A stretch of DNA of 64,000 bases from an uncultured Rhodospirillales bacterium (GTDB lineage Bacteria; Pseudomonadota; Alphaproteobacteria; ATCC43930; CGMCC-115725). The position numbers were made by a program, and so were the translations under genes. The notes below the pieces were generated by a model, which was given only the letters and a program-made list of their open reading frames with translations, searched no databases and was not told the origin of the DNA. Below, in pieces: positions 29,101-46,453 of this stretch. The DNA is taken from contig CAIJOA010000042.1 in NCBI GenBank assembly GCA_903822185.1, positions 62,001 to 126,000 of the forward strand. Reading direction: 5' to 3'. How positions within the stretch are numbered: position 1 is the first letter of the stretch; the number at the start of each line of letters is the position of its first letter.

Positions 29101-29112
29101 GACGATTTCCTT

Positions 29113-29697: not shown

Positions 29698-29723
29698 CGA
29701 AAGATTGTCCGCTGTGTTATTCT

Positions 29724-29754: not shown

Positions 29755-29790
29755 TCACAACCGGCTTTTACAGCCGTCGGGAGGCCATCG

Positions 29791-30546
29791 ATGTTGGAGC
29801 TCTATCACGCGCTCACCTCGACCTGCAGTCAGAAAGTTCGCATCGTTCTTTTCGAGAAAAATCTCCAATGGGTCGATCGTTCGGTCAATCTGGCGGCGAA
29901 CGAACATCTGACGCCGGCTTATCTCGCGCTTAATCCCAACGGCGTTGTGCCGACGTTGGTGCATGATGGACACGCGATCGTCGATTCGAGCGTTATTTGT
30001 GAATATCTCGACGAGGTTTTCCCGACACCGTCTTTGACCCCGGCCGATCCGGTGCGTCGCGCCGAAATGCGTGCCTGGATGCGCTTTCTCGAGGAAGTGC
30101 CGACGGCGGCGATCCGTGTACCGTCCTTTCATATGGCTCTGGCGCGTCGTTTCGAGAGTCTCGATGCCGACGGCTTTCAGACCAAGGTGGCCGACATCCG
30201 CCCGCTGCGGAAACATTTCTATCGCCGCATGGGTACCGAAGGTTTCAAGCAGCAAGAGGTCGAAGAATCGCTCGACGAGCTGGAACGGACGATGGAACGG
30301 ATGGAGACAGCACTGGCGAAAGGGCCGTGGCTTATGGGCGCCGATTTCACCCTGGCCGACGTCGTCGTCATGCCGTCAATCGACCGGCTGGCGGATCTTG
30401 GCCTCGCGAAGATGTGGGAAGAAGGCTATCCGCGGGTCGGTGACTGGTATGCGCGGCTTCAGGCGCGTCCGGCTTTCGCCAAGACCTATCCCAAAGGCAG
30501 CCGCTTGTCGGAAGGCATGAAGATTCGGCCGCTCGCCTGGGCGTGA
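29791..30546 (+). CDS. Glutathione S-transferase (GST cluster, member 3)
   Basis: A 251-aa GST starting MLELYHALTSTCSQKVRIVLFEKN (glutathione-site S/C in TSTCSQK). NPNGVVPTLVHDG and DSSVICEYLDE supply the cis-Pro and glutathione contacts. The C-terminal domain has two helices rich in Glu/Arg followed by GPWLMGADFTLADV, the GST folding motif. It is divergent from tetR and probably shares its operator. The next gene, 28 bases downstream, is a related GST. Confidence 0.86.
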   Translation: MLELYHALTSTCSQKVRIVLFEKNLQWVDRSVNLAANEHLTPAYLALNPNGVVPTLVHDGHAIVDSSVICEYLDEVFPTPSLTPADPVRRAEMRAWMRFLEEVPTAAIRVPSFHMALARRFESLDADGFQTKVADIRPLRKHFYRRMGTEGFKQQEVEESLDELERTMERMETALAKGPWLMGADFTLADVVVMPSIDRLADLGLAKMWEEGYPRVGDWYARLQARPAFAKTYPKGSRLSEGMKIRPLAWA

Positions 30547-30574
30547 GGCTGCAAAAACATCAAGGGAGAACGCG

Positions 30575-31309
30575 ATGACGCTCGAACTCTATCACTCCGG
30601 TTTGACCTCCTGCTCGAAGAAGGCCCGGCTGGGCCTGAAGGAGAAGGGGCTTGCCTATAAAAGCCATTTCATCCGGCTCGATAAGTTCGAACATCACGAT
30701 CCGGCCTATCTCAAGCTCAACCCGAACGGTCTGGTGCCGACGCTCGTTCATGACGGCAAGGTCATTATCGAATCCGGCGTCATCAACGAATATATCGACG
30801 AGGTCTTTCCCGATAAGCCGCTGAAGCCGGCCGATGCCTATGGCCGCGCGCAGATGCGCATCTTCTGCAAAATGGCGGACGAATACGGTCTGCCGGCGAC
30901 GCGCATCCCGACTTGGACCAGGACCAAGGCTGAGCAGATAAAGTCGATGCCGCAGGCCGAATTCGACAAGATCGTCAGCGAGACCCCTTTGGTCGATCAT
31001 CGCTTGAAGTTGGAAGCCCTCAAAGGCGAAGGCTTCACCAAAAAGGAATTCGACGAGGCTTACGGCAAGATGGATTACATCTTCAAACGCTGCGAGACCG
31101 CGCTCGCCGAAGGACCGTATCTTGCCGGCGATATGTACACGCTCGCCGATATCGCGATGCTGCCTTATATCGCCGCGTTCAAGGATGTGCGCCCGGATTT
31201 GCTGAAGGCACATCCCCATACGAATGGTTGGCTGGAACGGGTGATGGCGCGGCCGGCGGTGCAGGCGACCTATCTGCCTTCTGCGGAAACAGTACCGGCC
31301 GGCGCTTAA
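30575..31309 (+). CDS. Glutathione S-transferase (GST cluster, member 4)
   Basis: A 244-aa GST starting MTLELYHSGLTSCSKKARLGLKEKG. NPNGLVPTLVHDGKVIIESGVINEYIDEVFP is very like the equivalent stretch of members 1 and 3, so these three arose by duplication. AGGGAGAA precedes the ATG. A weak hairpin (GCGTCAT, 7-nt loop, ATGACGC; 31329-31349) follows the stop. Related cluster GSTs in aromatic degraders act as beta-etherases or detoxifying enzymes; the substrate cannot be told here. Confidence 0.86.
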   Translation: MTLELYHSGLTSCSKKARLGLKEKGLAYKSHFIRLDKFEHHDPAYLKLNPNGLVPTLVHDGKVIIESGVINEYIDEVFPDKPLKPADAYGRAQMRIFCKMADEYGLPATRIPTWTRTKAEQIKSMPQAEFDKIVSETPLVDHRLKLEALKGEGFTKKEFDEAYGKMDYIFKRCETALAEGPYLAGDMYTLADIAMLPYIAAFKDVRPDLLKAHPHTNGWLERVMARPAVQATYLPSAETVPAGA

Positions 31310-31764: not shown

Positions 31765-32880
31765 TTGTTCGAGGCTCAAGTCATTACGGTACCGATGGCC
31801 AGTCCGGACGACGTCAGTTCGGTGGCGCAGCTATTCGACAGCGGCAAGGTCGATGCCGCCCATGTCGTTGCGATCATTGCACAAACCGAGGGCGACGGCT
31901 TTGCGCGGGGCTATTCCTCGCTGTCGCTGCAGCATCTCTTCGCTCAGCGCCTGGGGCTGACGCCCGCCGAAATCTTCGACCGCATTCCGATGCTGATGAT
32001 CGGTGGGACAGCGGGGCTGATGAGCCCGCACTTCACGCTCTTCATCAACAAGCCGGCGACTGCCGCTACGAAAGGCACCGCGCCGCGTCTCGCGATCGGT
32101 GTCGCCAGCACGCGCCGCCTCCTGCCGGAAGAATACGGCACGATGCTGGAGATCGAGTTGGTCGCCGCCGGCGTGCGCGAGGCGATGGCGAGTGCCGGGA
32201 TTGCGACGGCCGCAGACGTCGTTTGCGTCGAATTGAAAACCCCGCAAATGACGACGCAGCGCGTGCAGGATGCGGAATCGCGCGGCAAAAAGACTGTCGA
32301 TACCAACATGATGGCGGCGTCGTCGAAGGGGCGCGGTGCGGCGGCGTTGGGCGCCGCGATGGCGCTGGGCGAGGTCTCGCCGGCGGATATATCCGACGCG
32401 ATCGTCGGCCGCCGTCTCGATCTCTATTCCGACAAGGTCTCGGCCTCGTCGGGCAACGAGCAGAATGCGGTGCGTATCGTCGTGATCGGTAATGTCGCCG
32501 GCGCGCCGGGTGATTACATCGCAGGCAACGGCGTGATGAAAAATCAGCTCGACCTGCCGGGCGCGCGTGCGGCATTCAGCGCGGCGGGCCTCTTGCTGGA
32601 AGACGGCATCGTCGTGCCGGCAGACAGAGCCAAGATCGCCGCCGTGTTCTGCAACGCGGGCGCCAACGCCCTGCCGAATTGTCTCGGCCATCGCACCACG
32701 ATGACGACCGATCTTCTTGCGCCCTACGCGGGCCATGTCGCGAAGGCCATCGTGCATGCCAATGTCGCGGCGATCGCGCAAACGCCGATGGTCCTGGCCA
32801 GCGCGGGTTTCGAGCATCAAGGCGCGCTCGGCTCCAATCTTATTTGCGTCATCGCCAATCACGCCGCGAATCAGGGCTGA
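31765..32880 (+). CDS. Ring-opening amidohydrolase, cyanuric acid hydrolase/barbiturase family
   Basis: A 371-aa enzyme of the AtzD/TrzD/barbiturase family, known only for opening cyanuric acid or barbituric acid rings with three internal-repeat domains and a Ser-Lys mechanism. The three serine motifs are visible as IGGTAGLMSPH, SASSGNEQNAV and ASAGFEHQGALGSN. Start TTG 31765 lies 10 bases after GGAG; the product then has the normal family length and begins FEAQVITVPMASPDD. It heads the operon under the sigma-54 promoter. With a biuret-hydrolase-like gene in the same operon, cyanuric acid or a related ring is the likeliest substrate; a barbiturate-like pyrimidine is the alternative. Confidence 0.88.
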   Translation: MFEAQVITVPMASPDDVSSVAQLFDSGKVDAAHVVAIIAQTEGDGFARGYSSLSLQHLFAQRLGLTPAEIFDRIPMLMIGGTAGLMSPHFTLFINKPATAATKGTAPRLAIGVASTRRLLPEEYGTMLEIELVAAGVREAMASAGIATAADVVCVELKTPQMTTQRVQDAESRGKKTVDTNMMAASSKGRGAAALGAAMALGEVSPADISDAIVGRRLDLYSDKVSASSGNEQNAVRIVVIGNVAGAPGDYIAGNGVMKNQLDLPGARAAFSAAGLLLEDGIVVPADRAKIAAVFCNAGANALPNCLGHRTTMTTDLLAPYAGHVAKAIVHANVAAIAQTPMVLASAGFEHQGALGSNLICVIANHAANQG

Positions 32881-32885
32881 CCGCG

Positions 32886-33665
32886 ATGTACACGCTCTCG
32901 CGCCATACCATCCGCACCGTCGTCAGCCCGATCGCGTTCGGGCTCGGGTTGATTCTCACCTGGGAATTGGTCTGCGACGCCTTCAAGGTGTCGAAATTCA
33001 TCATTCCGCGCCCGGCCGCCATTGGGCCGATGTTCTTCTCGCATTGGTCGGTGATCTGGCCGAACGCGCTGCAGACGCTGGCGACGACTTTCAGCGGTTT
33101 TGCCATCGGCATCTCGGCGGGGTTCCTGCTGGGCGTCGCGCTGGGCGCCTCGGCCAATCTTCATAAGACGATCTTCGCGACGCTGATCGGGATCAACAAC
33201 ATCCCAAAGGTCGCTTTCACCCCGCTGATCGTTCTGTCGGTCGGGCTGGGGACCGTGCCCGCCGTCATCACCTCGGCATTGATCGTCGTCTTTCCGATCG
33301 CGATCGTGGTCTCGGCATCGGTCGCGCAGATGGATCCGGAACTCAACGACGTGATGCGCTCGCTCGGCGCCAGCCGCTATCTCGCCATGGTCAAGATCGG
33401 TATTCCGCAGGCGATGCCTTCTTTCTTCGCCGCGCTGAAGATCGCGATCACGCTGGCCCTGGTCGGCTCGTTCCTCTCGGAAACCGTCGCCGCCAATCGC
33501 GGCCTTGGTTACATGATGAGCCGCGCCGCGTCCGACTTCGATGTCGAACTCGTCTTCAGCGGTCTCACCATGCTCGTCGTCATCGCCATCATCCTCTACG
33601 TGCTCGTGATCGTTGCCGAGCGGCGCGTGGTGGGGTGGGCTTATCGCAAAGGCGGTTCAACTTGA
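32886..33665 (+). CDS. ABC transporter permease (TauC/SsuC type), first
   Basis: A 259-aa inner-membrane permease with about six hydrophobic segments. The EAA-type cytoplasmic loop is LNDVMRSLGASRYLAMVKIGIPQAMP, where the ATPase docks. It belongs to the nitrate/sulfonate/taurine BPD-transport family. ATG 32886 is 5 bases after the ring-opening enzyme stop, so translation is probably coupled. A second permease at 35606 shares this operon; the two may form a heterodimer, unlike most relatives, which use one permease gene. Confidence 0.9.
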   Translation: MYTLSRHTIRTVVSPIAFGLGLILTWELVCDAFKVSKFIIPRPAAIGPMFFSHWSVIWPNALQTLATTFSGFAIGISAGFLLGVALGASANLHKTIFATLIGINNIPKVAFTPLIVLSVGLGTVPAVITSALIVVFPIAIVVSASVAQMDPELNDVMRSLGASRYLAMVKIGIPQAMPSFFAALKIAITLALVGSFLSETVAANRGLGYMMSRAASDFDVELVFSGLTMLVVIAIILYVLVIVAERRVVGWAYRKGGST

Positions 33666-33738
33666 TCGCCGACAAAAATGCCAGGGAACGGAATTGCCGT
33701 CGCCATTCGCCCCGAAGCCATTTTCGAAGGAGGTCAGC

Positions 33739-34788
33739 ATGACACTATTCGTTCGCTCGATGATTTCACCGGCCGTCGCATTCGCACTTACGTTGGGGGC
33801 ACTTGCCCTCCCGGCAAAACCGGCCGCAGCCCTTGAAAAAATCCCGCTCTCGCTGGCCTGGACTATCGGGGGCTCGAATGGGCCTCTTTATATCGCAATG
33901 GATCGAGGCTACTTCGCCGCCGAGGGGCTGGAGATCGATGCGGTGCCGGGTGACGGCTCCGCCAATGTCGTCAATCGGCTGGCGAGTGGGGCTTATCAGA
34001 TCGGGTTTGGCGATGTCCCGTCGGTGATCAAGTACGACACGCTTAATCCCGATAAGAAAGTGATGGTGATCTATAACCAGTTTCCCTCCGATCTGAGTAT
34101 CGTTTCGCTCAAAGGTCGCGGCATTTCCACGCCGCAGGATCTCAAAGGCAAGACCATCGGCGCGCCGACCGGCGATACCGCCTACAAGATGTTCGCCGCC
34201 TTCGCATCTGCCAACAAAATCTCCGCCGACGACATGAAGTGGGAACACATGGCGATCACGTTGCGTGAGCCGATGCTGATCCAGGGCAAGGTCGATGCGA
34301 TCACCGCGAACGAAAGCACCGCCTATTTCGCCCTGAAGGGCGCGGGCATTCCCGACTCCGACATGGTCTTCATCCGCTATCCCGAACACGGCATCAATCT
34401 GGTCGGCAGCGGCATGATGGTGAACGAATCCTATGCCAAAGAACATCCCGATACCGTCCGGAAGATCGTCAAAGCCTTCAATCATGGTTGGGAAGACAGC
34501 TTTGCCGATCCTAAGGCTTCGCTTGATGCGGCGCTGAAGCGTGACCCGTTGCTGAAGCCCGACATCGAAATGGGCCGCCTGAAATACGCGATAAAAGGCA
34601 TGGTCGGTCAGCCGGATGCGAAGAAAGCCGGTATCGGTGCCTATACCGATGAAACGCTTGCCGCTTCGATCGATATCATCGCCGCTTCCGAGAAGCTGAC
34701 GACCAAGATCGCGCCCAAGGATATGTCGGATATGAGCTTCCTGCCGCCGATAGCGGAACGGCATCTGCCGACGGCGACGATCAATTGA
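33739..34788 (+). CDS. NMT1-type ABC solute-binding protein of the N-heterocycle operon (1)
   Basis: A 349-aa periplasmic protein with signal peptide (MTLFVRSMISPAVAFALTLG) ending near AAALEK. Motifs are GPLYIAMDRGYFAAEGLEID, GDGSANVVNRLASG and GAPTGDTAYKMFAAF. It is a clear paralogue of 39348-40370 in the same operon. The start is set by AAGGAGGT 6 bases before ATG 33739. It is positioned between permease and ATPase, so it surely serves this importer. The presumed ligand is the N-heterocycle or its breakdown product. Confidence 0.9.
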   Translation: MTLFVRSMISPAVAFALTLGALALPAKPAAALEKIPLSLAWTIGGSNGPLYIAMDRGYFAAEGLEIDAVPGDGSANVVNRLASGAYQIGFGDVPSVIKYDTLNPDKKVMVIYNQFPSDLSIVSLKGRGISTPQDLKGKTIGAPTGDTAYKMFAAFASANKISADDMKWEHMAITLREPMLIQGKVDAITANESTAYFALKGAGIPDSDMVFIRYPEHGINLVGSGMMVNESYAKEHPDTVRKIVKAFNHGWEDSFADPKASLDAALKRDPLLKPDIEMGRLKYAIKGMVGQPDAKKAGIGAYTDETLAASIDIIAASEKLTTKIAPKDMSDMSFLPPIAERHLPTATIN

Positions 34789-35609
34789 GCGCCGACGGCT
34801 TTTCCCCGATGCCGCCGCTGGTCGATCTCGACCGGGTGACGCTGACCTACGGCGAGGGCCGGCGCGGAACGCCGGCACTCTCCGACACAACCCTGCGGAT
34901 TGCCGAGGGCGAGTTCGTCGCCTTCGTCGGTCCCAGCGGCTGCGGGAAGTCGTCTTTGCTGAAGCTTGTCTCGGGCCTCGTGCCGGCGACGACGGGCAAT
35001 GTCATCGTGGCGCAACGCGAGGTCACCGAGCCGATCAAGATCGTCGGCATGGCCTTCCAAAATCCCAACTTGCTGCCGTGGCGCAACACCTTGAGCAACG
35101 TGTTGCTGCCGGTGGAGATCGTTCAACCGCATCGCAGCCGCTTGCGGCAGGACCGGGATGCCTATGTTACGCGCGCACGGTCGCTGCTGAAGACCGTCGG
35201 GCTTGCCGATTTCGAGGACAAGCTGCCCTGGCAATTATCCGGCGGCATGCAGCAACGCGCCTCCTTGTGCCGCGCGCTGATGCACGAGCCGTCCCTGCTG
35301 CTGCTCGACGAGCCCTTCGGCGCGCTCGATGCCTTCACGCGCGAAGAATTATGGTCGGTGCTTCAGACATTGTGGATGGAACGCCGCTTTACCGTCGTGC
35401 TGGTGACTCATGACCTGCGCGAGGCGCTTTATCTCTCCGACACGATTTACGTGATGAGCGCGCGGCCGGGCCGCATCTTGGTCCGGCACGAGGTTACCTT
35501 TCCACGGCCTCGGACCCTCGCCAGCACTTACGAGCCGGCCTTCGTCGATGCGTTATCCGAACTGCGCGGCCATATCTCCGAAGCGCGTGGGGGCGCGGCG
35601 CCGGTATGA
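34785..35609 (+). CDS. ABC transporter ATP-binding protein (TauB/SsuB type)
   Basis: A 274-aa ATPase with Walker A GPSGCGKSS (49-57), Q-loop Q92, signature LSGGMQQR (151-158), Walker B with DEP (175-177) and switch H209. The TTG at 34785 overlaps the binding-protein stop (TTGA), and an ATG at 34809 is an alternative; neither has a strong ribosome site. Its stop overlaps the next permease start as ATGA. The single ATPase must energise both permeases. Confidence 0.93.
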   Translation: MSADGFSPMPPLVDLDRVTLTYGEGRRGTPALSDTTLRIAEGEFVAFVGPSGCGKSSLLKLVSGLVPATTGNVIVAQREVTEPIKIVGMAFQNPNLLPWRNTLSNVLLPVEIVQPHRSRLRQDRDAYVTRARSLLKTVGLADFEDKLPWQLSGGMQQRASLCRALMHEPSLLLLDEPFGALDAFTREELWSVLQTLWMERRFTVVLVTHDLREALYLSDTIYVMSARPGRILVRHEVTFPRPRTLASTYEPAFVDALSELRGHISEARGGAAPV

Positions 35610-36448
35610 CCCTGTCCCTCGGCAAAGCGAGATCGGCGATGGCGGTTCCGCCGGCGGATGACGAACCCCGTTTTCGCCTACCGAAGATATCGCGCCGCGT
35701 TCTGGCGAATGTCTTTTTGCCGATCAGTTTCGTCTTATTCCTTCTCTTGGTCTGGCAAATCAGCACGCAGGCTTTTCACATCCCGCCTTACATCCTGCCG
35801 TCGCCGAGCGCCTTCCTCTCCGTGCTGGTTCAGCGTTCCGACGTGCTGCTGATGATGGCGAAGCAGACCGCCGAGGCGACGCTGATGGGGTTCGCCGTCG
35901 GCGTGACCGTCGGTCTCGCGATCGGCGGGTTGATGGGGTCGTCGCGCGTGATGTACGACATGATCTATCCCTCGCTGATCGGTGTTCATGCCGTGCCCAG
36001 CGTCGCGCTCATCCCCGTGTTCATCGTCTGGGTCGGGATCGGGCCGCAGATCGCTGTCATCACCGGCGCCATCGCTAGCTTCTTTCCCGTCACGGTGATC
36101 GTCGCTTCGGCGATCGCGGCATCTTCCCCGGAACTCGACGACGTTTTGCGTTCGCTCGGTGCGCGCAAGATCGATGTGTTGCTTAAAGTGTCGATCCCGC
36201 AGGCGCTGCCGCAATTTTTCGGCTCGATCAAACTCGCCATCTCGGGGGCCTTCATCGGCACCATCGTTGCCGAGATTGTCGCCGGTAGTGTCGGCATCGG
36301 CCATGTGATGGTGATCGCGACCAACAACATGGACGGCCCGTTGGCTTACGCCGGCCTGACCATTCTCGCGACCATGGGCGTGACGCTCTACCTCATCGCC
36401 GTGCTGATCGAGAAGCGCATGACCGGCTGGGCGTATCGCCGGAATTAA
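35606..36448 (+). CDS. ABC transporter permease (TauC/SsuC type), second
   Basis: A 280-aa permease with a 35-residue cytoplasmic N-terminus, about six membrane segments and the EAA loop LDDVLRSLGARKIDVLLKVSIPQALP. It is co-translated with the ATPase (ATGA overlap at 35606-35609). It differs clearly from the first permease at 32886. Either the two make a mixed pore, or each pairs with one of the two binding proteins of the operon. Confidence 0.92.
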   Translation: MTLSLGKARSAMAVPPADDEPRFRLPKISRRVLANVFLPISFVLFLLLVWQISTQAFHIPPYILPSPSAFLSVLVQRSDVLLMMAKQTAEATLMGFAVGVTVGLAIGGLMGSSRVMYDMIYPSLIGVHAVPSVALIPVFIVWVGIGPQIAVITGAIASFFPVTVIVASAIAASSPELDDVLRSLGARKIDVLLKVSIPQALPQFFGSIKLAISGAFIGTIVAEIVAGSVGIGHVMVIATNNMDGPLAYAGLTILATMGVTLYLIAVLIEKRMTGWAYRRN

Positions 36449-36464
36449 TCGAAGGGACATTATC

Positions 36465-37943
36465 ATGACCGACAATCTGGCCCTTGCCTCCGCCACCGAA
36501 CTCTCGGCGCTCTATCGCGCCAAGAAGGCGTCGCCTGTCGAGACGATGAAGGCGGTGCTGACGCAGATCGACAAACTCAATCCGCTGCTCAACGCTTTCT
36601 GCTGGCTTGATGCCGATGCTGCCTTGGCCTCGGCGCAAGGCAGCGAGGATCGCTGGATGCGCGGCGCGCCGAAAAGCGGCGTTGATGGCATTCCGACGAC
36701 GGTGAAGGATCTCTCCTATACGCGCGGCTGGCCGACACGGCGCGGCAGCCTGGCGATCCGCGCACGCGGACCCTGGCTCGAGGATTCACCGTCGGTCGCC
36801 CGCATGCGCGAAGCCGGTGCCGTGATCTTCGCCAAGACCAGCGTTCCCGAATTCGCGGCGATGAACCTGACCAAGTCGGTGCTGTGCGGCGTAACCCGCA
36901 ATCCGTTCAACCCGGAAAAGACGTCGGGTGGGTCGAGCGGTGGTGCGGCAACGTCGCTCGCCGCCGGTATGGGCACGCTGGCGTTGGCGTCGGATGCGTC
37001 CGGATCGATCCGGTCGCCGTCGTCCTATACCGGTGTGTTCGGTCTGAAGACGACATTCGGCAGTGTCGCCGATTATCCGTCGAGCTATCTCGGTTCCAAA
37101 GCCGTCATCGGCCCGATGGCGCGCACCGTCGCCGATGCTGCTTTGTGTATGAGCATCATCACCCGCCCCGATGCGCGTGACTCCTATGCCCTGCCGCAAC
37201 TGCCGGATGATTTTGTCGGTGTCCTGTCGAAAGGCATCAAGGGCCTGCGCATCGCCTACAGTCCGACCCTAGGGTATAGCGAAGTCGATCCCGAGATCGC
37301 GACCATCGTCGAGAAGGCGGTGAAGCTGCTGACCGAACTCGGCGCCGAGGTCGATATCGTCGATCACGTCTTCGATGACCCGGCAAGCTGTAACGCCGTC
37401 ATCTCGGCGGCGGGTTCGGCGAATATGTTCCGCTTCCTCGGCATCACCGAAGCCGACAAGAAATTGATTAGCCCGCATCTCGTCCAGCGTGCCGAAGCCG
37501 GCATGAAAGTCAGCGCGCTCGACTATCTCATCGCCCGAGAGCAGCGCGAGAATCTCGGCGCACTGATGCGCAAATTCCATGAAAAATATGACCTGCTGGT
37601 CACGCCGACCCTGGCGCATCCGGCACTCGGCGCCGAGGAAGAGGTCATAACCAATCCGCGTTACACCAAATTCAAGGGCCTCTCCGCATTCGGTCCGGCC
37701 TTCAACCTGACGAAGCAGCCCGCCGCGTCCGTTCCCGTTGGAATGACTGCCGATGGGTTGCCGGTGGGGATGCAGGTCGTCGGCCCGCTCTATGCCGATG
37801 CCCTGGTCATGCGGCTCTGTCATGCCGTCGAAATGGCGCAACCCTTTGCCAGGCCGAATCTGTCGCGTCTGCCGATCGGCGGCGGCATGCCGCGCGGCCT
37901 TGCCAGCATGCACGAGGCTTTGCCCGAAGTGGCGGCAGCATGA
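36465..37943 (+). CDS. Amidase-signature hydrolase of the N-heterocycle operon
   Basis: A 492-aa cytoplasmic amidase. The Ser-cisSer-Lys triad is K81 (TVKDLSY), S157 (GGSSGG, 155-160) and S181 (DASGSIRSP). The family includes AtzE (1-carboxybiuret amidohydrolase), the N-terminal part of allophanate hydrolase AtzF, and ureidomalonase of the barbiturate pathway. It lacks the extra C-terminal domain of AtzF. Its place between importer and monooxygenases, in an operon with ring-opening and biuret-type hydrolases, supports a role on an acyl-urea intermediate. The ribosome site is GAAGGGA. Confidence 0.9.
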   Translation: MTDNLALASATELSALYRAKKASPVETMKAVLTQIDKLNPLLNAFCWLDADAALASAQGSEDRWMRGAPKSGVDGIPTTVKDLSYTRGWPTRRGSLAIRARGPWLEDSPSVARMREAGAVIFAKTSVPEFAAMNLTKSVLCGVTRNPFNPEKTSGGSSGGAATSLAAGMGTLALASDASGSIRSPSSYTGVFGLKTTFGSVADYPSSYLGSKAVIGPMARTVADAALCMSIITRPDARDSYALPQLPDDFVGVLSKGIKGLRIAYSPTLGYSEVDPEIATIVEKAVKLLTELGAEVDIVDHVFDDPASCNAVISAAGSANMFRFLGITEADKKLISPHLVQRAEAGMKVSALDYLIAREQRENLGALMRKFHEKYDLLVTPTLAHPALGAEEEVITNPRYTKFKGLSAFGPAFNLTKQPAASVPVGMTADGLPVGMQVVGPLYADALVMRLCHAVEMAQPFARPNLSRLPIGGGMPRGLASMHEALPEVAAA

Positions 37944-37974
37944 ATCCGATCCTTTCCATCTGCGGAGATGCGCG

Positions 37975-39336
37975 ATGACGAAGATGATGAATCTGATCAC
38001 GGCGTTGCATTCGATCGGCTACCACCCGGGCGGCTGGCGTCATCCCGAAGCCTGGTCGCAGCCGTCGGTCAATTTCGAGCAGAATCTTCAAACCGCTAAA
38101 ACAGCCGAACGTGGCAAGTTCGACATGCTGTTCACCGGCGACAGCAACAGCGTCAAAATGGGCTCGCGCGAATTGCTGCGCGCCGGCTCGATGAACGGCC
38201 GTCCGGTCGCGTTCGAACCGGTGACCCTGCTCTCGGCGATCGCGATGCACACCAAGAATATCGGTCTCCTCGCCACAGCAACGACGACCTATGAAGAACC
38301 TTGGACGCTGGCGCGCAAATTCGCCTCGCTGGATCACATCAGCGGCGGCCGCGCCTGTTGGAATGTGGTCACGACCTCGACGTTTGCCGACGCGCTCAAT
38401 TTCAGCAAGACCGAGCATCTGCCCGCCGATCAGCGATATGAGCGCGCCCGCGAATGCGTCGAGGTGTGCAAAGGCCTTTGGGATAGCTGGGCCGACGATG
38501 CTTTTACCCAGGACAAAGAAAGCGGTCAGTTCCTCGATCCGGACAAGCTTCATGTCCTCGATCACAAGGGAAAATATTTCGGCGTCAAAGGTCCGTTGAA
38601 CATCCGTCGTCCGCCGCAAGGCCATCCGGTGCTGTTCATGGCCGGCCAGTCCGAACCGGGGCGCGAATTCGCCGCTTCCACCGCGGATTGTCAATTCGCC
38701 GTGACGCCGTCGAAGGAGATGGCGATCGGTTTCTATGCCGATGTCAAAAGCCGCATGGCTAAATACGGCCGCTCCACCGAAGAACTGCGCATCCTGCCTG
38801 GCGTCGGCGTCGGCGTCTATGTCGGCCGGACGGCCGAAGAGGCCGATGAATTCATCGAACAGCTCGAATCGCGCGTCTCGCCGGTGCAGGGCGTACAGCA
38901 TCTCTCGGCGCATCTCGGCATGGATCTCTCCGGTTATCCGATCGATGGACCGGTGCCGGAAATCACCGGCGACAATCTCGGCGTCTCCAGCCGCCGATTT
39001 GCCGTCGCCGAAATGGCGAAGCGCGAAAACCTAACGATCCGGCAAACTTATCTGCGCGTCATCCGCTCGCTCGGCCATGTCGTGATGAAGGGCAGCGGTA
39101 AGCAGGTCGCCGATCAGATGGAAGACTGGTTCACGAGCAACGCTTGCGACGGTTTCAACGTCCATGTGCCGATTCAGCCCGGCGGTCTCAATCGCTTCGT
39201 CGATCTGGTCATCCCCGAACTGCAGCGGCGCGGCCTCTTCCGCACGGAATATAGCGGCAAGAGCCTGCGTGAAGAGATGGGCCTGCCTGTCGCCACCAAT
39301 CCCTTTTTCCCCGCACATGTCGCTGCCGCGCAATGA
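37975..39336 (+). CDS. NtaA/SnaA/DszA-family FMN-dependent monooxygenase (1)
   Basis: A 453-aa luciferase-like monooxygenase of the group that includes nitrilotriacetate (NtaA) and dibenzothiophene-sulfone (DszA) monooxygenases, which use FMNH2 from a separate reductase. Signatures are [64 protein letters not shown] and [19 protein letters not shown] lies 6 bases before ATG 37975. It is a paralogue of 40404-41756. Oxidative attack on a carbon-nitrogen bond, as RutA does with uracil, would suit the pathway. No flavin reductase gene is in the operon. Confidence 0.9.
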   Translation: MTKMMNLITALHSIGYHPGGWRHPEAWSQPSVNFEQNLQTAKTAERGKFDMLFTGDSNSVKMGSRELLRAGSMNGRPVAFEPVTLLSAIAMHTKNIGLLATATTTYEEPWTLARKFASLDHISGGRACWNVVTTSTFADALNFSKTEHLPADQRYERARECVEVCKGLWDSWADDAFTQDKESGQFLDPDKLHVLDHKGKYFGVKGPLNIRRPPQGHPVLFMAGQSEPGREFAASTADCQFAVTPSKEMAIGFYADVKSRMAKYGRSTEELRILPGVGVGVYVGRTAEEADEFIEQLESRVSPVQGVQHLSAHLGMDLSGYPIDGPVPEITGDNLGVSSRRFAVAEMAKRENLTIRQTYLRVIRSLGHVVMKGSGKQVADQMEDWFTSNACDGFNVHVPIQPGGLNRFVDLVIPELQRRGLFRTEYSGKSLREEMGLPVATNPFFPAHVAAAQ

Positions 39337-39347
39337 AGGATATCCGC

Positions 39348-40370
39348 ATGAAAGCGATTGCCGCCGCTTCCCTCGCCGTCATTTTGGCGCTGGCCAGTAC
39401 GCCGGCCCACGCGCTCGAAAAACTTTCCTTCTCGCTGGCATCGACGATCGACGGACGCAGCGGCGCGATCCTGCTCGCTTATGACCGGGGTTATTTCAAG
39501 GACCAAGGCATCGATCTCGATATCGTGCCCGGCAACGGATCGGCGAATGTCGTCAATCGTCTTGCCAGCGGCACGTTCCAGATGGGCTCGGGCGATATCG
39601 CATCGGTCATCAAGTTCGACATGGCCAATCCCGATAAGCTCGTCAAAGCCGTCTATAACGAAAAGCTCGCCGACCTGGTCATCGTTTCACTCAAGGGACG
39701 CGGCATCACCGCGCCGACGGATTTGAAGGGCCGCACCGTCGGCGCGCCGACCGGCGACACCGCTTACAAGATGTTCGGCGCGTTCAGCACCGCGACCGGC
39801 GTCAAAGCCGACGACATCAAATGGGAACATATGGATATGACCATCCGCGAGGCCATGCTGGTCCAGGGGAAGGTCGATGCCATCACAGCGTCTTGGGCTT
39901 CGGCGTTTTTCAATCTGAAGGCGCTTGGCATTCCCGATGAGAACATGGTGTTCATCCGCTATTCGAGTTATGGCGTGAACATCGTCGGCAATGGCTGGAT
40001 GGCCAACGAATCTTTCATCAAGGAACATCCCGACACCGTCCGTAAGATGCTGGCCGCGTTCAACCGCGGCTGGCGTGACACGCTCGCCGATCCCAACGCC
40101 GCGCTCGATTCCGTGTTCAAACGCGAACCGTTGCTGAAGCGCGAGCTCGAACTGCCGAAGCTGCTGGACGCGGCGGCCTCCCTGACCGACCAGCCCGACG
40201 CCAAGGCCGGCGGCTTCGGCAACTACAGTGAAGAGACGATCAAATATACCGTCGGCGTCGTCGCCGCCGCGGAAAAGACCGAGCCGAAGATCGCCTTCTC
40301 CGACATCGTCGATCTCAGCTTCCTGCCGCCGCTCGCCGAGCGAACCCTTCCCGCGAAAGCGACCCATTAA
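39348..40370 (+). CDS. NMT1-type ABC solute-binding protein of the N-heterocycle operon (2)
   Basis: A 340-aa periplasmic protein with signal peptide MKAIAAASLAVILALASTPAHA. It is a paralogue of 33739-34788: DRGYFKDQGIDLDIVPGNGSANVVNRLASG and GAPTGDTAYKMFGAF are nearly unchanged. I prefer ATG 39348 (AAGGA 6 bases upstream) to ATG 39333, which overlaps the monooxygenase stop. A second binding protein suggests that the single importer takes two related compounds. Confidence 0.9.
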   Translation: MKAIAAASLAVILALASTPAHALEKLSFSLASTIDGRSGAILLAYDRGYFKDQGIDLDIVPGNGSANVVNRLASGTFQMGSGDIASVIKFDMANPDKLVKAVYNEKLADLVIVSLKGRGITAPTDLKGRTVGAPTGDTAYKMFGAFSTATGVKADDIKWEHMDMTIREAMLVQGKVDAITASWASAFFNLKALGIPDENMVFIRYSSYGVNIVGNGWMANESFIKEHPDTVRKMLAAFNRGWRDTLADPNAALDSVFKREPLLKRELELPKLLDAAASLTDQPDAKAGGFGNYSEETIKYTVGVVAAAEKTEPKIAFSDIVDLSFLPPLAERTLPAKATH

Positions 40371-40403
40371 ACACAGCGACCGCCGTTACCGAGGAGAAGC
40401 ATC

Positions 40404-41756
40404 ATGATGAATTTGATTACCGGCCTCAGCGGCATCGGATATCACCCGGGCAGTTGGCGCCATCCGTCGTCCTGGACGCGGCCGCTGATGAATCTGGAAT
40501 ATCTGATCGAAGTGGCGCATACGGCCGAGCGCGGCAAGTTGGATATGCTGTTCCTGGCTGACGGCAATAGCGTGCGTATGAGTGCGCCGCACGTTCTCGC
40601 CGCCGGCGGTTTGCTGAGCCGTCCCGCGATCCATGAGCCGGTGACGCTGCTCACGGCGATCGCGCAGCACACCAAGAATATCGGTCTGCTGGCGACGGCA
40701 ACGACGACTTACGAAGAGCCCTTCACGCTGGCGCGCAAATTCGCCTCGCTGGATCATCTCAGCAACGGCCGCGCTTCGTGGAATGTCGTCACGACGTCCA
40801 ATCCGGGCGACGCCTATAATTTCAGCCGCGACAGCCATATGGCGCGTGTCGATCGTTACGAGCGCGCGCGCGAATTCGTTCAGGTCGTCAAGGGGCTTTG
40901 GGACAGTTGGGCGGATGACGCGCTGACCCAGGATCGTGAGACCGGACAGATTCTCGATCCGGCGAAAATTCACGTTCTCAATCACAAGGGAAAGCATCTG
41001 TCGGTGAAGGGGCCGCTCAATTGCGCCCGTCCGCCGCAGGGCTATCCCGTTCTTTTCATGGCCGGCCAGTCCGAGCCGGGACGCGATCTCTCTGCCTCGA
41101 TGGCCGATTGCCAATTTGCCGTGACGCCGACCAAGGAAGAGGCGATGGCGTATTATGCCGATCTTAAAGCGCGGTTGCCGAAATATGGCCGCCGGCCCGA
41201 AGATCTGCGTGTCATGCCCGGTGCGACCATCTATGTCGGCCGTACCTCCGAGGAAGCGGACGAGTTCTTCGAGGAACTGCAATCGCGCATTCCGCCGGAA
41301 CTCGGCGTCGATTATCTCTCGGGCCTGATGAGCATGGATCTGACGCAACTGCCGATCGATGGCCCGGTGCCCGAGCCTCAGGAGATCGTCGGCGGGTCGA
41401 GCCGCCGTTATGTGATCTACGACATGGCGAAGCGCGAGAACCTCACCATTCGCCAGACCTATGAGCGTGTGATCCCAACCGTCGGCCATGTGCTGATGAA
41501 GGGCAACGGCAAGCAGGTCGCCGAGCAGATGATCGACTGGTATCGCAGCAAGGCCTGCGATGGCTTCAACGTCCATATTCCGCATCAGCCGAGCGGCCTG
41601 ACCAATTTCGTCGATTTCGTCATTCCGGAGCTTCAGCATGCCGGCGCCTTCCGCAAGGAATATGAAGGTCGCAACCTGCGCGAACGGATGGGCCTGCCGG
41701 TGCCGTCCAATCCGTATTTTACGGAAGCAGCCGAACCGATGCCGCAGAGCGCCTGA
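40404..41756 (+). CDS. NtaA/SnaA/DszA-family FMN-dependent monooxygenase (2)
   Basis: A 450-aa paralogue of 37975-39336 with the same motifs ([66 protein letters not shown]). GAGGAG precedes ATG 40404. The alternation monooxygenase, binding protein, monooxygenase looks like an ancestral pair that was duplicated. Two enzymes may oxidise successive positions, or two different ring compounds. Confidence 0.9.
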
Positions 41757-41770
41757 GCCAGGAGGCATTC

Positions 41771-42454
41771 ATGTCCGAGAAATATGTCCCGGCCGATCCC
41801 TATCCGTGGCCCTATAACGGTGATCTGCGGCCTGATAACACGGCGCTGATCGTCATCGACATGCAGACCGATTTTTGTGGCATCGGCGGCTATGTCGATC
41901 GCATGGGCTACGATCTCAACATGACGCGCGCGCCACTCGGCCCGATCTCAAAGGTGCTGGCGGCGATGCGCGCCAAGGGCTTCACGATCATCCATACCCG
42001 CGAAGGTCATCGCCCCGATCTCGCCGACTTGCCGGCGAACAAACGGTGGCGGTCGCGGCGCATCGGTGCGGGCATCGGCGATGACGGTCCCTGCGGCCGC
42101 ATCCTCGTGCGTGGCGAACCCGGATGGGAGATCGTTCCCGAGGTGGCGCCGTTGCCGGGTGAACCGATCATCGACAAACCCGGCAAAGGATCGTTCTGCG
42201 CCACCGATCTCGAATTGATCCTGAGGCAGAAGGGTATCGACAATATCGTCCTGACGGGCATCACCACCGATGTCTGCGTTCATACGACGATGCGCGAAGC
42301 CAATGACCGCGGCTTCGAATGCCTGTTGTTAGAGGATTGCTGCGGTGCGACCGATCAGGGCAACCACGATCATGCGATCAAGATGGTGAAAATGCAGGGC
42401 GGGGTCTTCGGCACGGTGACGAATTCGCAAAGCCTGATTGCGGCGCTGGCCTGA
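41771..42454 (+). CDS. biuH: Probable biuret hydrolase (isochorismatase-like cysteine hydrolase)
   Basis: A 227-aa cysteine hydrolase. The catalytic triad D30 (VIDMQTDF), K136 (IDKPGKGSF) and C169 (TDVCVHTT) has exactly the spacing I recall for rhizobial BiuH. Stretches I know from BiuH also occur: [21 protein letters not shown]-type histidine loop, [16 protein letters not shown], and KMQGG near the C-terminus with Q209. BiuH turns biuret into allophanate plus ammonia; the related triuret hydrolase and RutB are alternatives. AGGAGG precedes the ATG. Its presence with a cyanuric-acid-hydrolase-family gene links both to one route. Confidence 0.87.
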
Positions 42455-42468
42455 AGAATTGAACTATC

Positions 42469-42504
42469 TTGACAATGGTACAGTGTGCGGGCGCATGGTA
42501 TGGT
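42469..42504 (+). promoter_or_regulatory. Possible promoter/operator of the GntR gene
   Basis: A perfect -35-like TTGACA (42469-42474) is followed by two ATGGTA copies (42475-42480 and 42495-42500), 20 bases apart, two helical turns. A good -10 at normal spacing is missing. The repeats could be half-sites for the GntR protein encoded just downstream. Confidence 0.35.
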
Positions 42505-42551
42505 CGCGGCCCTTACGCGCGCCTCGGCTTTCGTAACGATAGGATTTGATT

Positions 42552-43256
42552 TTGTCCGAGTTTTTGCAGGTTCCGGCGTTCGACACTCCAGTTGATACGA
42601 CGCTCGCGCCGCGCCGTTCTGGAACGCGTACCGAGGAATTGCGCATTCTTCTGGCCGACGAAATCGTTCGCGGAAAGCTGTCGCCGGGCATGCCGCTGGA
42701 AGAAGCCGAAATAGCGCGGCGCTTCGGCGTCTCGCGCACGCCCGTCCGCGAGGCGATTCGCGAGTTGGCGGCATCGGGTCTGGTTGAAACCCGCGCGCAT
42801 CGCAGCGCAATCGTGGCGCGTCCTTCGTCGGAACGGCTGCGCGGCATGTTCGATGTTCTCGCCGAACTCGAATCACTCTGCGCCGGGCTCTCGGCAATCA
42901 AGATGACCTCGGATGAGCGTCAGGCGTTGCAGGAACTCCACGCCGAATTGGGCGAACTGGTTCTCGAGGGTGATCCAAAACCCTATCACGAGATGAACGA
43001 GCAGTTTCACAGCCTGATCTATATCGGCAGTCACAACGCCTATCTGACCGAGCTGACCTTCGCGACGCGGACGCGCTTGTCGCCGTTCAGCCATATGCAA
43101 TTCCGGGCCATGGGGCGTTTGACGCGTTCTCATGAGGAACATGACCGCGTGGTCGCCGCGATAATCGAGGGCGATCAAGCAACGGCGTCTGCCGAAATGC
43201 GCTCCCACATCACGACCGTCGAGATTACCTACGAGCGGTACGTCGAAAGCGCTTAA
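42552..43256 (+). CDS. GntR-family (FCD) transcriptional regulator
   Basis: A 234-aa regulator. The winged HTH (residues about 28-90, with LEEAEIARRFGVSRTPVREAIRELAASGLVE) is followed by an all-helical FCD ligand domain (ALQELH...PYHEMNEQFHSLIY...SHEEHDRVVAAI). Its metal/ligand residues are probably D/H in MNEQFHS and HEEHDR. AGGA lies 7 bases before TTG 42552, so I prefer that to an upstream TTG at 42546. It is last in the plus-strand series and likely senses a pathway intermediate. Its stop overlaps the convergent pdeM stop. Confidence 0.88.
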   Translation: MSEFLQVPAFDTPVDTTLAPRRSGTRTEELRILLADEIVRGKLSPGMPLEEAEIARRFGVSRTPVREAIRELAASGLVETRAHRSAIVARPSSERLRGMFDVLAELESLCAGLSAIKMTSDERQALQELHAELGELVLEGDPKPYHEMNEQFHSLIYIGSHNAYLTELTFATRTRLSPFSHMQFRAMGRLTRSHEEHDRVVAAIIEGDQATASAEMRSHITTVEITYERYVESA

Positions 43257-43954
43257 CTCGCTATTTGGGGGACGAATTCGCGCCGCACGAGCCGGCCCCT
43301 GATCATCAGATCGACGCGATAGCGCGTCGGGAACAATGCCCGGATCGGCGGGCTGTCGATATGAAGGCCGCCGGTATAGGCGCCGAAGGATGGCAGGATA
43401 ATTCGCCGCTCATCGTGGATGAAGCACATGCCGCTCAGGCGGCGGCCCTGCACGTCGATATGCGACTTGGGATGATAGTGTCCGCTGACTTCGCCGACCG
43501 GCGTATCGCCGGCTTGATGCTGAAAAGTAAGACCGTTGAGACGAAGCGCGTCGGTGACGATCTGCCCGCCGAGCGAGCGCGGCAAAGCGGTATCGTGATT
43601 GCCGGTCAGCCAGATCCATTCATGCGTATTCACCAGCCGCGCCAGCGCCATGGCGTCATCGAAACTGAGCGAGGCAGGGCCTTTCCCATCGTGAAAGCTA
43701 TCACCGAGACAGATGATGCGGCGAATTTTCGGGCCAATCGCCGCCGCAAGGCGGGCTAGCGTCGCGGCGGTGTCATAAGGCGGCAGATGCACGCCGCGCC
43801 GCGCGAAGCTCGATCCTTTTTCGAAATGCAGGTCCGCGACGATCAAGGTTGCCGTCGCCGGCCACCACAAGACGCCGCTCGGTTCGGCGATCAACTCGAT
43901 GCCATTGACGATGAGGCGGCCAACGTCGCCGTGTTGGGGTCGAATGGGCGTCAT
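43253..43954 (-). CDS. pdeM: Ligase-associated DNA damage response phosphoesterase
   Basis: A 233-aa metallophosphoesterase of the type that accompanies bacterial LigC-like repair ligases. The two-metal motifs are all present: D41-x-H43 (ADLHFEKG), D85 (GDSFHDG), N119-H120-D121 (GNHD) and H159-x-H161 (GHYHPK). Start ATG 43954 is one base after the helicase stop, so translation is coupled. It is the downstream member of the helicase/esterase pair; the exonuclease/ligase pair is divergent. Confidence 0.92.
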   Translation of the reverse strand: MTPIRPQHGDVGRLIVNGIELIAEPSGVLWWPATATLIVADLHFEKGSSFARRGVHLPPYDTAATLARLAAAIGPKIRRIICLGDSFHDGKGPASLSFDDAMALARLVNTHEWIWLTGNHDTALPRSLGGQIVTDALRLNGLTFQHQAGDTPVGEVSGHYHPKSHIDVQGRRLSGMCFIHDERRIILPSFGAYTGGLHIDSPPIRALFPTRYRVDLMIRGRLVRREFVPQIAS

Positions 43955-43955
43955 C

Positions 43956-46370
43956 TCAGTCCGGTGCGGCTTCACGCAGTAATTCATCGACGTCGGCTTT
44001 ATCGATGAGCGCATCGATCGCCGAGCCATAGACGGTTTCGCGTCCGATTTCGAGCAGGATCGGCACGGCCAGCGGTGAAACCCGATCCAGCGCGCGATGG
44101 GTGATATGGCCTTTGATACGGGCCAGCATCAGGCCAAGCCGGCGGATGTCGGTCAAACCGGTGGCGGCGTCGGCGTTCGTGGCGCGCAGCAGGATATGAT
44201 CCGGTTGATGCCGGCGCAGCACGTCATAGATCAGGTCGGAATTGAAGGTCACTTGGCGTCGGTTCTTTTCATGGCCGGGCAGGCGGCGTTCGATCAATCC
44301 CGCGATGACCGCGACGTTACGAAAGCTTCGCCGCAGCATCGACGATTCGGCCATCCATTCTTCGAGATCGTCCCCTAGCATGTCTTGCGCGAACAGTTGG
44401 TCAATGTCGCGCGCCGGTTCGAGACTCCAGATCGCCAGCACATAATCGGTCGCAACAAAGCCGAGCGGCTTTAATCCCGCGCGCTCCATTCGCCGCGTCA
44501 ACAACATACCCAACGTCTGATGGGCAGGCCGGCCCTCGAAGCCATAAGCGACAAGGTAGTGATAAGAGCCGCGCGGAAAGGTTTCGACCAGCAAGCCTTT
44601 GCGGTCCGGAAGTAGTGAGCGTTGTTTCTGCGCTTTCAGCCAGTCGCGCACGGGCGGTGGCAGGTCTTTCCACGATCGAGGCTGTTGCAATAACCCGCGC
44701 ACGCGTTCGGCCAGATGCGTCGAAAGCGGCAACTTGCCGCCGTCATAGCTGGGAATTTTGGGCTCTTTTTTGCCTTTGGCGCGGGACGCCCAAAGTTCCA
44801 TGCCCTGGATGCGATCGAAGGCGAGGATCTGGCCGGCAAACAAAAAGGTGTCGCCGTTGCGGAGGCCCAGGGCGAAGTTCTCCTCAACCTCGCCGATGAC
44901 TTTGCCGCCCCGGATACGCACGCGCAGCATCGCCGCTTCGACGATGGTGCCGATATTCATGCGATAGCGCCGCGCCACTTGCGGCGAGACGATGTGATAT
45001 TGGCCGAGGCTGTCGCGAAACAGATGCCGCCATTGATCATAGGCCTGCAACGCATAGCCGCCGGTTTCGACATAACTCAGCACATCGTCGAAATCGTTGC
45101 GCGGCAACGCGGCATAGGGCGCTGCTGAGGTGACCTCGGCATACATCGCGTCGGCGGTAAACGGGGCGGCACAGGCCATGCCGAGGACGTGCTGCGCCAA
45201 GACATCGAGTCCACCGGGGCGCGGCTTCTCACCGTCGAGTTCGCGTGCTGCGATGGCGCCCAGCGCGGCGCGGCATTCCAATGCCTCAAAGCGATTGGCC
45301 GGAACCAGCAAAGCTTCGCTGGGCGTATCGAGCCGATGATTGGCGCGACCGACACGTTGCGTCAGGCGTGACACGCCTTTCGGCGCGCCGATTTGAATGA
45401 CGAGATCGACCGCGCCCCAATCGATGCCGAGATCGAGCGACGAGGTCGCGACGACGGCACGCAGCTTGCCCGCCGCCATCGCGGCCTCGACCTTGCGACG
45501 TTGCTCGACCACCAGACTGCCGTGATGCAGCGCGATCGGCAGATTGGCTTCGTTATGTTTCCACAATTCCTGGAAAACGAGTTCGGCCTGGGCGCGCGTA
45601 TTGACGAAGACGAGCGTCGTTTGATGCTGCCCGATTTTCCGATAGACCTCGCCCAGCGCGTGCAGCCCCATATGCCCGGCCCAGGGGAGTTCCTCGCCCG
45701 GTTCCAACATCGTGACCTGCGGCAACGGCCCCTCGTCGCCGGCAATGCGATGCACCTTTTTCCCGCCCGATCCGATCCAGGCAGCCAGTTCGTCGGGCCA
45801 TGCGATGGTTGCCGACAACCCGACATGGCGCGCTTCCGGCGCGAGCTTAGCCAGACGTGCCAGACCCAACGCCAATAGGTCGCCGCGCTTGCCGCCGGCG
45901 AGGGCATGAACCTCGTCGATAATGACCGCGCGCAGGCTGCCAAAGGTTTTGTCGGCATCCTGGTGCGAGAGCATCAACGCCAGCGACTCCGGCGTCGTCA
46001 TCAGCATATGCGGCGGGTCTTCGCGCTGACGTTGCCGCCGTGCCGCTGGCGTGTCCCCGGTGCGGGTTTCGAGCCGGATCGGAAGTTTCAACTCCTCGAT
46101 CGGCGCGCCGAGATTGCGGTGGATATCGACCGCCAGAGCTTTGAGGGGCGAGATATAGAGCGTGTGAAGCGAAGGCGGCGGATTTTGCGCCAATTCGATC
46201 AGGCTCGGCAGAAATCCTGCCAGAGTCTTACCGCCGCCTGTCGGCGCCGTCAGCAGCACCGACTGCCCGGCTTGCGCCGCCTCGATCATGGCGCGCTGAT
46301 GCGGGTGCAGCGTCCAACGGCGGGACGCGAACCATTGCGCGAGACTGGAGGGAAGGGCGTCGAGCGGCAT
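43956..46370 (-). CDS. Ligase-associated DNA damage response DExH helicase (Lhr-core type)
   Basis: An 804-aa superfamily 2 helicase. Motif I is GGGKT (45-49), the Walker B box is DEVH (152-155) and the SF2 C-terminal motif RVGRANHR is near residue 343. A winged-helix and Lhr-specific C-terminal domain follow, giving the Lhr-core length. Relatives are 3'-5' single-strand-DNA-dependent translocases implicated in repair of cross-links or breaks. It is encoded with pdeM, opposite the exonuclease and ligase genes. The 83 bases to the exonuclease start hold both promoters. Confidence 0.94.
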   Translation of the reverse strand: MPLDALPSSLAQWFASRRWTLHPHQRAMIEAAQAGQSVLLTAPTGGGKTLAGFLPSLIELAQNPPPSLHTLYISPLKALAVDIHRNLGAPIEELKLPIRLETRTGDTPAARRQRQREDPPHMLMTTPESLALMLSHQDADKTFGSLRAVIIDEVHALAGGKRGDLLALGLARLAKLAPEARHVGLSATIAWPDELAAWIGSGGKKVHRIAGDEGPLPQVTMLEPGEELPWAGHMGLHALGEVYRKIGQHQTTLVFVNTRAQAELVFQELWKHNEANLPIALHHGSLVVEQRRKVEAAMAAGKLRAVVATSSLDLGIDWGAVDLVIQIGAPKGVSRLTQRVGRANHRLDTPSEALLVPANRFEALECRAALGAIAARELDGEKPRPGGLDVLAQHVLGMACAAPFTADAMYAEVTSAAPYAALPRNDFDDVLSYVETGGYALQAYDQWRHLFRDSLGQYHIVSPQVARRYRMNIGTIVEAAMLRVRIRGGKVIGEVEENFALGLRNGDTFLFAGQILAFDRIQGMELWASRAKGKKEPKIPSYDGGKLPLSTHLAERVRGLLQQPRSWKDLPPPVRDWLKAQKQRSLLPDRKGLLVETFPRGSYHYLVAYGFEGRPAHQTLGMLLTRRMERAGLKPLGFVATDYVLAIWSLEPARDIDQLFAQDMLGDDLEEWMAESSMLRRSFRNVAVIAGLIERRLPGHEKNRRQVTFNSDLIYDVLRRHQPDHILLRATNADAATGLTDIRRLGLMLARIKGHITHRALDRVSPLAVPILLEIGRETVYGSAIDALIDKADVDELLREAAPD

Positions 46371-46379
46371 GCTTCGAGA

Positions 46380-46444: not shown

Positions 46445-46453
46445 AGATCGGAC

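Follow-up and report, generated by a model that had tools for sequence, protein, structure and literature searches.

The window, a 64,000-nucleotide stretch of DNA from an uncultured Rhodospirillales bacterium, carries eleven genes at positions 31,765-43,256 that we read as a catabolic operon. An imported nitrogen heterocycle, or an N-substituted relative of one, would serve as the nitrogen source by way of an acylurea formed by a ring-opening amidohydrolase, here called CAHL. We give this reading a probability of about 0.5. The operon itself is real, conserved in parts and mechanistically coherent. The host's draft genome comprises 50 contigs totalling 4.27 Mb and is 95% complete. All eleven genes lie on the plus strand, and each overlaps the next or ends less than 100 bp from it. 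Identified by comparison with Pfam and NCBIfam profiles, they are:

31765-32880, plus strand: CAHL, ring-opening amidohydrolase (PF09663, E=7.6e-104) of the Gln42/Ile85/Asn296 subfamily; the longest open reading frame begins at 31708 and the start is putative
32886-33665, plus strand: ABC permease 1, BPD_transp_1 (PF00528)
33739-34788, plus strand: SBP1, substrate-binding protein (SBP), NMT1/THI5-like by Pfam and solved relatives
34785-35609, plus strand: ABC ATPase, best NCBIfam matches of the taurine/nitrate type, under their cut-offs
35606-36448, plus strand: ABC permease 2 (PF00528)
36465-37943, plus strand: amidase-signature hydrolase (PRK06169, 549 bits, cut-off 506)
37975-39336, plus strand: LLM1, NtaA/DmoA-family monooxygenase dependent on flavin mononucleotide (FMN) (TIGR03860, 523 bits, cut-off 280)
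39333-40370, plus strand: SBP2, NMT1/THI5-like substrate-binding protein, 56% identical to SBP1
40404-41756, plus strand: LLM2, NtaA/DmoA-family FMN-dependent monooxygenase (TIGR03860, 506 bits, cut-off 280), 66% identical to LLM1
41771-42454, plus strand: BiuH, biuret amidohydrolase (NF050097, 424 bits, cut-off 370) with Asp30, Lys136 and Cys169
42546-43256, plus strand: GntR/FCD regulator, sharing 47% identity across 202 residues with the GntR of the BiuH/cyanuric acid hydrolase (CAH) cluster of Rhizobium leguminosarum WSM1325

The junctions are, in order, 5 bp, 73 bp, an overlap, an overlap, 16 bp, 31 bp, an overlap, 33 bp, 14 bp and 91 bp, lengths that depend on the start codons we chose. 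Ten short or overlapping junctions in a row fit a single transcript. The initial annotation had named genes of these kinds on one strand, and all were recovered as plus-strand open frames with family matches. Its idea of a single catabolic operon that imports a nitrogen-rich compound, opens a ring and then performs a biuret-type hydrolysis is still the most economical reading. In such a pathway, the two paralogous binding proteins would supply one ABC importer of the NMT1/ThiY type. The two paralogous FMN monooxygenases would carry out an oxidation or N-dealkylation, either on the compound itself or, just as plausibly, on its product after ring opening. Using a single Ser-Lys-Glu centre, CAHL would hydrolyse the ring to an acylurea of the ureido or biuret type, BiuH would cleave the biuret unit with release of ammonia, and the amidase would cleave a residual amide or an allophanate-type product, with the GntR/FCD protein presumably controlling the operon. 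The steps may run in this order or in a slightly different one.

The initial annotation had described CAHL as an enzyme of the CAH/barbiturase family. Membership in PF09663 holds, and the best match to CAHs in the PDB has E=1.8e-70. CAHL also passes the subfamily model TIGR02714. It falls under the NCBIfam CAH equivalog cut-off (290 vs 360 bits), so that a CAH proper is not what the profile indicates. CAHL was aligned with AtzD, TrzD, the Moorella CAH and barbiturase. In this alignment CAHL lacks four residues at the NGCVND stretch, and Lys42, Ser85, Lys296 and the metal-site Glu298, whose equivalents the three CAHs and barbiturase all have, are replaced by Gln, Ile, Asn and Gly respectively. 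CAHL retains Lys162, Ser233, the following Glu (Glu237) and Ser344; of the three Ser-Lys dyads (42/85, 162/233 and 296/344), only Lys162/Ser233 is intact.

This pattern is a property of a whole clade. Gln, Ile, Asn and Gly occupy positions 42, 85, 296 and 298 in 37/37 CAHL sequences, which also keep Lys162, Ser233 and Glu237 (37/37) and Ser344 (35/37). Among 29 other family members, Lys42 and Ser85 are found in 29/29, Lys296 in 28/29 (one gap) and Glu298 in 23/29. The CAHL rows are the window, L046 and L049-L084 without L082, whose open reading frame is split; L048, a duplicate of L046, is not among them. The other rows are L015-L045, minus one duplicate (L021) and L040, which gave no match. 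Two peptide patterns, one of which contains AQTEGD, had yielded a set of 37 loci, and Gln42 is therefore partly a selection effect; Ile85, Asn296 and Gly298 lie outside both patterns. In a FastTree phylogeny the CAHL clade is separate from other PF09663 enzymes (support 0.998), and within it the CAHLs of the window, of a congener (L046), of L050 and of L062 form a subclade (support 0.987). We know of no substrate for this branch of the family.

The published work consulted on the AtzD/barbiturase family deals mainly with cyanuric acid enzymes. In the available text of PMC3758960 the family has six groups, of which Group V has no known substrate, and the Group V enzyme AZC_3203 was inactive on cyanuric and barbituric acid. 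The Ala345 and Gly346 of CAHL fit this group, and where Group V listed Bacillus alcalophilus, the relatives of CAHL include Alkalihalobacillus trypoxylicola and Halalkalibacter; position 195, however, is reported absent in Group V, whereas Lys or Arg aligns there in the CAHL clade. Set against this published description, CAHL would probably belong to Group V. The same portion of that paper states that the dyad residues are conserved throughout 68 family sequences, which is not so in CAHL. According to the accessible part of PMC4051656, only the Ser226/Lys156 dyad is absolutely conserved across 119 sequences, and the activity of a CAH on cyanuric acid drops ~10^4- to 10^9-fold when one Ser or Lys is changed. 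Because the Ser-Lys-Glu centre is kept while the other dyads are lost, and in view of these dyad data, CAHL is most likely an active enzyme with a substrate other than that of a typical CAH. The cyanurate- or barbiturate-like ring of the initial annotation thus loses its support, since CAHL lacks residues of which single changes cripple a real CAH, and neither cyanuric nor barbituric acid in free form is likely to be the ring. Barbiturase was rejected as an identity for CAHL, which has Arg, Ala and Gly at columns 195, 345 and 346 (barbiturase-like residues being Asn195, Val345 and Ser/Ala346) and lies outside the clade holding PDB 5hwe.

The CAH model can accept a member with one intact dyad: the ring-opener at L056:10013-11107 (Erysipelotrichaceae) exceeds the NCBIfam cut-off (366 vs 360 bits), and the CAHL of L076 does not (295 bits). 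Proteins of the L056 type may be over-annotated as cyanuric acid hydrolases.

The neighbours of CAHL point to the kind of product that it may release. We compared 38 CAHL loci (36 found by pattern, L046 and the window) with 28 control loci (L175-L202) holding other PF09663 enzymes, a few of them distant and all from the window's class or family. An isochorismatase-type hydrolase or a gene for AllF, AllG or AllH (oxamate-carbamoyltransferase subunits) occurs in 31/38 CAHL loci and 4/28 controls, a contrast that is suggestive and not a formal test, as most CAHL loci are from Firmicutes, unlike the controls, short contigs occur in both sets and the profiles were mostly built from CAHL neighbours. 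Isochorismatase genes are present in 16/38 CAHL and 3/28 control loci and AllF/G/H genes in 16/38 CAHL loci; the two kinds meet in one CAHL locus and in no control. Gene by gene, the counts (CAHL vs control loci) are 16 vs 1 for AllG, 11 vs 1 for AllF, 7 vs 0 for AllH, 3 vs 0 for carbamate kinase, 25 vs 0 for a PucR regulator, 17 vs 0 for an FAH-family hydrolase, 22 vs 4 for an NMT1 SBP and 20 vs 13 for an amidase. An AtzC-like deaminase is found in 32 vs 5, and four of the five control matches are in loci whose enzyme falls in the barbiturase clade. In Firmicutes this deaminase adjoins CAHL; for the representative in L083 the best solved relative is AtzC 4cqb (E=5.8e-60). None was found in the window or its genome at E <= 1e-10, in a search that had no positive control.

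Oxalurate, ureidomalonate and biuret have the acylurea unit R-CO-NH-CO-NH2 in common. Because the acylurea-cleaving neighbours are interchangeable and this unit is common to such compounds, the linkage suggests an acylurea as the product of CAHL. From oxalurate, AllFGH makes oxamate and carbamoyl phosphate (PMC11326118). A wider proposal, which we regard as possible but tentative, is that CAHL represents a widespread ring-opening family with a single Ser-Lys-Glu centre and an unrecognised natural substrate, feeding an acylurea pathway with an interchangeable last step, which would fall to BiuH in the window, to a RutB-like hydrolase in many Bacilli and, in other Firmicutes, to ATP-conserving AllFGH together with carbamate kinase. 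The ring would come from an AtzC-like deaminase in Firmicutes and from flavin monooxygenases in the window's lineage. If this is true, there would be a native Firmicutes pathway from which the enzyme pairing of the lower atrazine route (AtzC-AtzD-AtzE/F) could have come. As in that route, an AtzC-like deaminase adjoins an AtzD-like ring-opener in Firmicutes, often with amide-hydrolase genes nearby; unlike it, CAHL keeps one dyad, and AllF/G/H or isochorismatase genes replace AtzE/F. The clade spans Firmicutes and Proteobacteria, and an exchangeable ureido-cleaving gene beside most of its members makes an orphan branch of the family testable. This linkage is new, whereas a cluster of ring-opener, BiuH, ABC importer and GntR was known already. 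In the portions of the literature that our search covered, no account of linkage between a carbamoyltransferase and a CAH-family gene was found; the available text of PMC12625717, covering carbamoyltransferase and cyanuric acid hydrolase, reports that atzD was not found in nitrifier metagenome-assembled genomes (MAGs).

At L053-L059, L063, L064, L070 and L083, mostly Firmicutes, an AtzD-like enzyme and an AtzC-like deaminase occur with at least one of AllF/G/H. The clusters at L059, L063 and L070 also contain carbamate kinase, which would permit ATP gain from ring degradation. At L184 (G159:C268) a non-CAHL ring-opener of the Lys42/Ser85 type likewise lies beside AllG and AllF.

The initial annotation had proposed looking for the same gene order in other genomes. 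Sub-blocks of the order recur in L050 and L062, while none of the other loci examined showed the complete eleven-gene order. In L050, a Beijerinckiaceae MAG, CAHL, permease, SBP and ATPase follow one another as in the window; the first three are 58, 58 and 51% identical, and the ATPase is 71% identical over 38 matched residues, at which point the contig ends. L062, an alphaproteobacterial MAG, has CAHL-amidase followed by a luciferase-like monooxygenase (LLM), at 49, 57 and 58-59% identity. In the congener (L046), CAHL, permease and SBP stand in the same order and are 75, 77 and 81% identical to those of the window, the last over 270 matched residues. As parts of the order recur in other genomes, the arrangement is not chance. 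In FastTree phylogenies, LLM1 and LLM2 pair with each other, though weakly supported (0.694), and the pair groups with the L062 LLM at 0.898. SBP1 groups with the SBP of the congener (0.982) and SBP2 with that of L050 at only 0.496; therefore the tree does not date the SBP duplication.

For the last step, the initial annotation's probable biuret hydrolase was borne out. Judged by its sequence, BiuH is a canonical biuret hydrolase, because it scores over the equivalog cut-off, matches PDB 6AZO, the enzyme of R. leguminosarum, across residues 4-226 (430 bits) and carries Asp30, Lys136, Cys169 and Gln209, which we take to be reference residues 36, 142, 175 and 215. Against the RutB model it reaches 108 bits, under the cut-off of 378. 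BiuH shares 81% identity with its counterpart in R. leguminosarum WSM1325 and 74-83% with its 29 best alphaproteobacterial matches, itself excluded. The initial annotation knew of no route that adds a pair of flavin monooxygenases and a biuret hydrolase to a ring-opener; the union of ring-opener and biuret hydrolase, at least, is known, as CAH-BiuH clusters have been noted in R. leguminosarum (PMC5806882). The WSM1325 cluster (L203) comprises GntR, a BMP-type ABC importer, a formamidase, BiuH, a CAH, a second cysteine hydrolase and a cupin. It shares with the window an ABC importer, a PF09663 ring-opener, BiuH, an amide hydrolase and a GntR regulator. Its ring-opener, however, belongs to the true CAH type (motifs GKTEGNGCVND and MSGGTEG) and is 36% identical to CAHL, its importer is of the BMP type, and a formamidase replaces the amidase-signature enzyme. 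It also has the cupin and the extra cysteine hydrolase, which is 45% identical to the window's BiuH and which we label TrtA-like, its GntR is on the opposite strand, and no monooxygenase lies inside the cluster.

The amidase carries Lys81 and the Ser158 of a GGSSGG stretch, which we take to be its catalytic motif. AtzE and AtzF were rejected as identities for it (205 < 426 and 134 < 511 bits; TIGR02715 and TIGR02713). A GatA-like amidase beside BiuH has been proposed for an allophanate role in ammonia-oxidising archaea (PMC12625717, in its available part), and by this precedent an allophanate role would fit the operon amidase.

Several observations weigh against the proposed pathway. For the allophanate that BiuH is expected to yield, no AtzF (allophanate hydrolase) over the cut-off is present in the 95%-complete draft genome, and no flavin reductase is among the eleven operon genes, the rest of the genome not having been searched for one; the word complete, which the initial annotation applied to the system, is therefore doubtful. 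An LLM gene occurs in merely 3/38 CAHL loci within the stretch examined (0/28 controls). Seven CAHL loci (L046, L050, L062, L072, L073, L074 and L081) have neither an isochorismatase nor an All gene; L050, L062, L074 and L081 are interrupted by contig ends, but L046, L072 and L073 are not interrupted near CAHL on its downstream side and have no ureido-cleaving gene. In the congener the block of genes ends inside the binding-protein gene or directly behind it, running into a secretion-ATPase-type gene, and the LLM matches there are only 27-36% identical to those of the window. Phe aligns at Ser233 in 3/29 comparison sequences, which would mean either a misalignment or that Ser233 is not universal in the family. 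Finally, at the 12 BiuH loci examined (L009-L012, L165-L169, L172, L173 and L203), the BiuH orthologues sit in another cluster type or at least lack the ring-opener and monooxygenase neighbours seen in the window; an LLM gene is found in 1/12, nearly 9 kb off beyond other genes. BiuH could thus act on biuret independently and merely be located in the operon.

There are three other explanations for the locus. In the first, which we consider unlikely, two modules are adjacent: a CAHL/ABC/amidase/LLM pathway that bypasses biuret, and a biuH-gntR pair from a canonical biuret/triuret cluster that handles environmental biuret. The close alphaproteobacterial matches of BiuH fit this explanation, as does the regulator, which is 47-51% identical to those of canonical biuret-type clusters, and in L062 CAHL-amidase-LLM is followed by a 2OG-Fe(II) oxygenase and a thiolase, with BiuH not directly next. 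On the other hand, LLM2 and BiuH are 14 bp apart, and since 31/38 CAHL loci have a ureido-cleaving gene, such an enzyme is expected in the pathway.

In the second explanation, that of the initial annotation, the monooxygenases would make cyanuric or barbituric acid from a substituted triazine or pyrimidine, CAHL would open it in spite of its altered active site, and BiuH and the amidase would finish. BiuH serves cyanuric acid catabolism in R. leguminosarum (PMC5806882, available text), CAHL keeps the Ser-Lys-Glu centre argued in the accessible part of PMC4051656 to hold the nucleophile, and at least one clade member (L056) passes the CAH cut-off. We nevertheless hold a genuine cyanuric or barbituric acid pathway to be quite improbable: the equivalents of Lys42, Ser85, Lys296 and Glu298 are missing throughout the clade, AZC_3203, with similar residues at 345/346, was inactive on both compounds (PMC3758960, available text), and the FAH and PucR genes near Firmicutes relatives (17/38 and 25/38) are, in our judgement, unusual for a triazine route. 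In the third explanation, which we hold to be very unlikely, an organosulfur or N-substituted compound would be handled by the monooxygenases and binding proteins in a role like that of NtaA, DszA or SsuA, and the ring-opener would have a side function. In its favour, the best solved relatives of LLM2 are YtnJ/MoxC, NTA monooxygenase and DszA, and SsuA is the best NCBIfam model for both SBPs. Against it, both SBPs fall far under the SsuA cut-off (74 and 66 < 163.5), C-N hydrolases flank the LLMs, and the transporter in L050 and amidase-LLM in L062 are neighbours of CAHL.

For the operon reading, the accessory proteins say less about the compound. Substrates vary among the solved relatives of LLM2, which do not point to a single reaction. 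For SBP1, the list of solved relatives is headed by 4nmy, an unspecified binding protein, and includes pyrimidine-binding ThiY and THI5, which gives a weak hint of a pyrimidine-like ligand. The Rut pyrimidine pathway likewise pairs a flavin monooxygenase (RutA) with an isochorismatase-family hydrolase (RutB) on a ureido product, but the operon LLMs are of the NtaA family and only weakly similar to RutA, and BiuH takes the place of RutB. A literature search joining biuret with luciferase-like monooxygenase found nothing. Oxonate/5-azauracil, considered as a natural biuret source, was dropped after one literature search gave no paper in which two of its five terms came together.

Related genes occur elsewhere. 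In the same genome, L171 (G000:C32:146000-165999) has tandem NtaA-family monooxygenases that are 75% identical to each other, a Rieske oxygenase, a 2OG-Fe(II) oxygenase, an NMT1-type ABC importer and an isochorismatase-family hydrolase; it was considered as a possible duplicate system, and its 20 kb stretch has no CAHL match. In the congener, a GntR 74% identical to that of the window lies on another contig (L164, G012:C2:31000-50999) with a BiuH-like gene (50%) ~9 kb off, and this 20 kb stretch has no match to the window's ring-opener or monooxygenases.

Just upstream of the operon, window positions 28402-31309 contain three glutathione S-transferase genes and a TetR regulator. Downstream, a probable DNA-repair cluster at 43253-49035 encodes a metallophosphoesterase, an Lhr-type helicase, a metallo-beta-lactamase-fold protein and an ATP-dependent DNA ligase. 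Further along, 57438-58631 on the plus strand holds another amidase-like stretch with one in-frame TGA.

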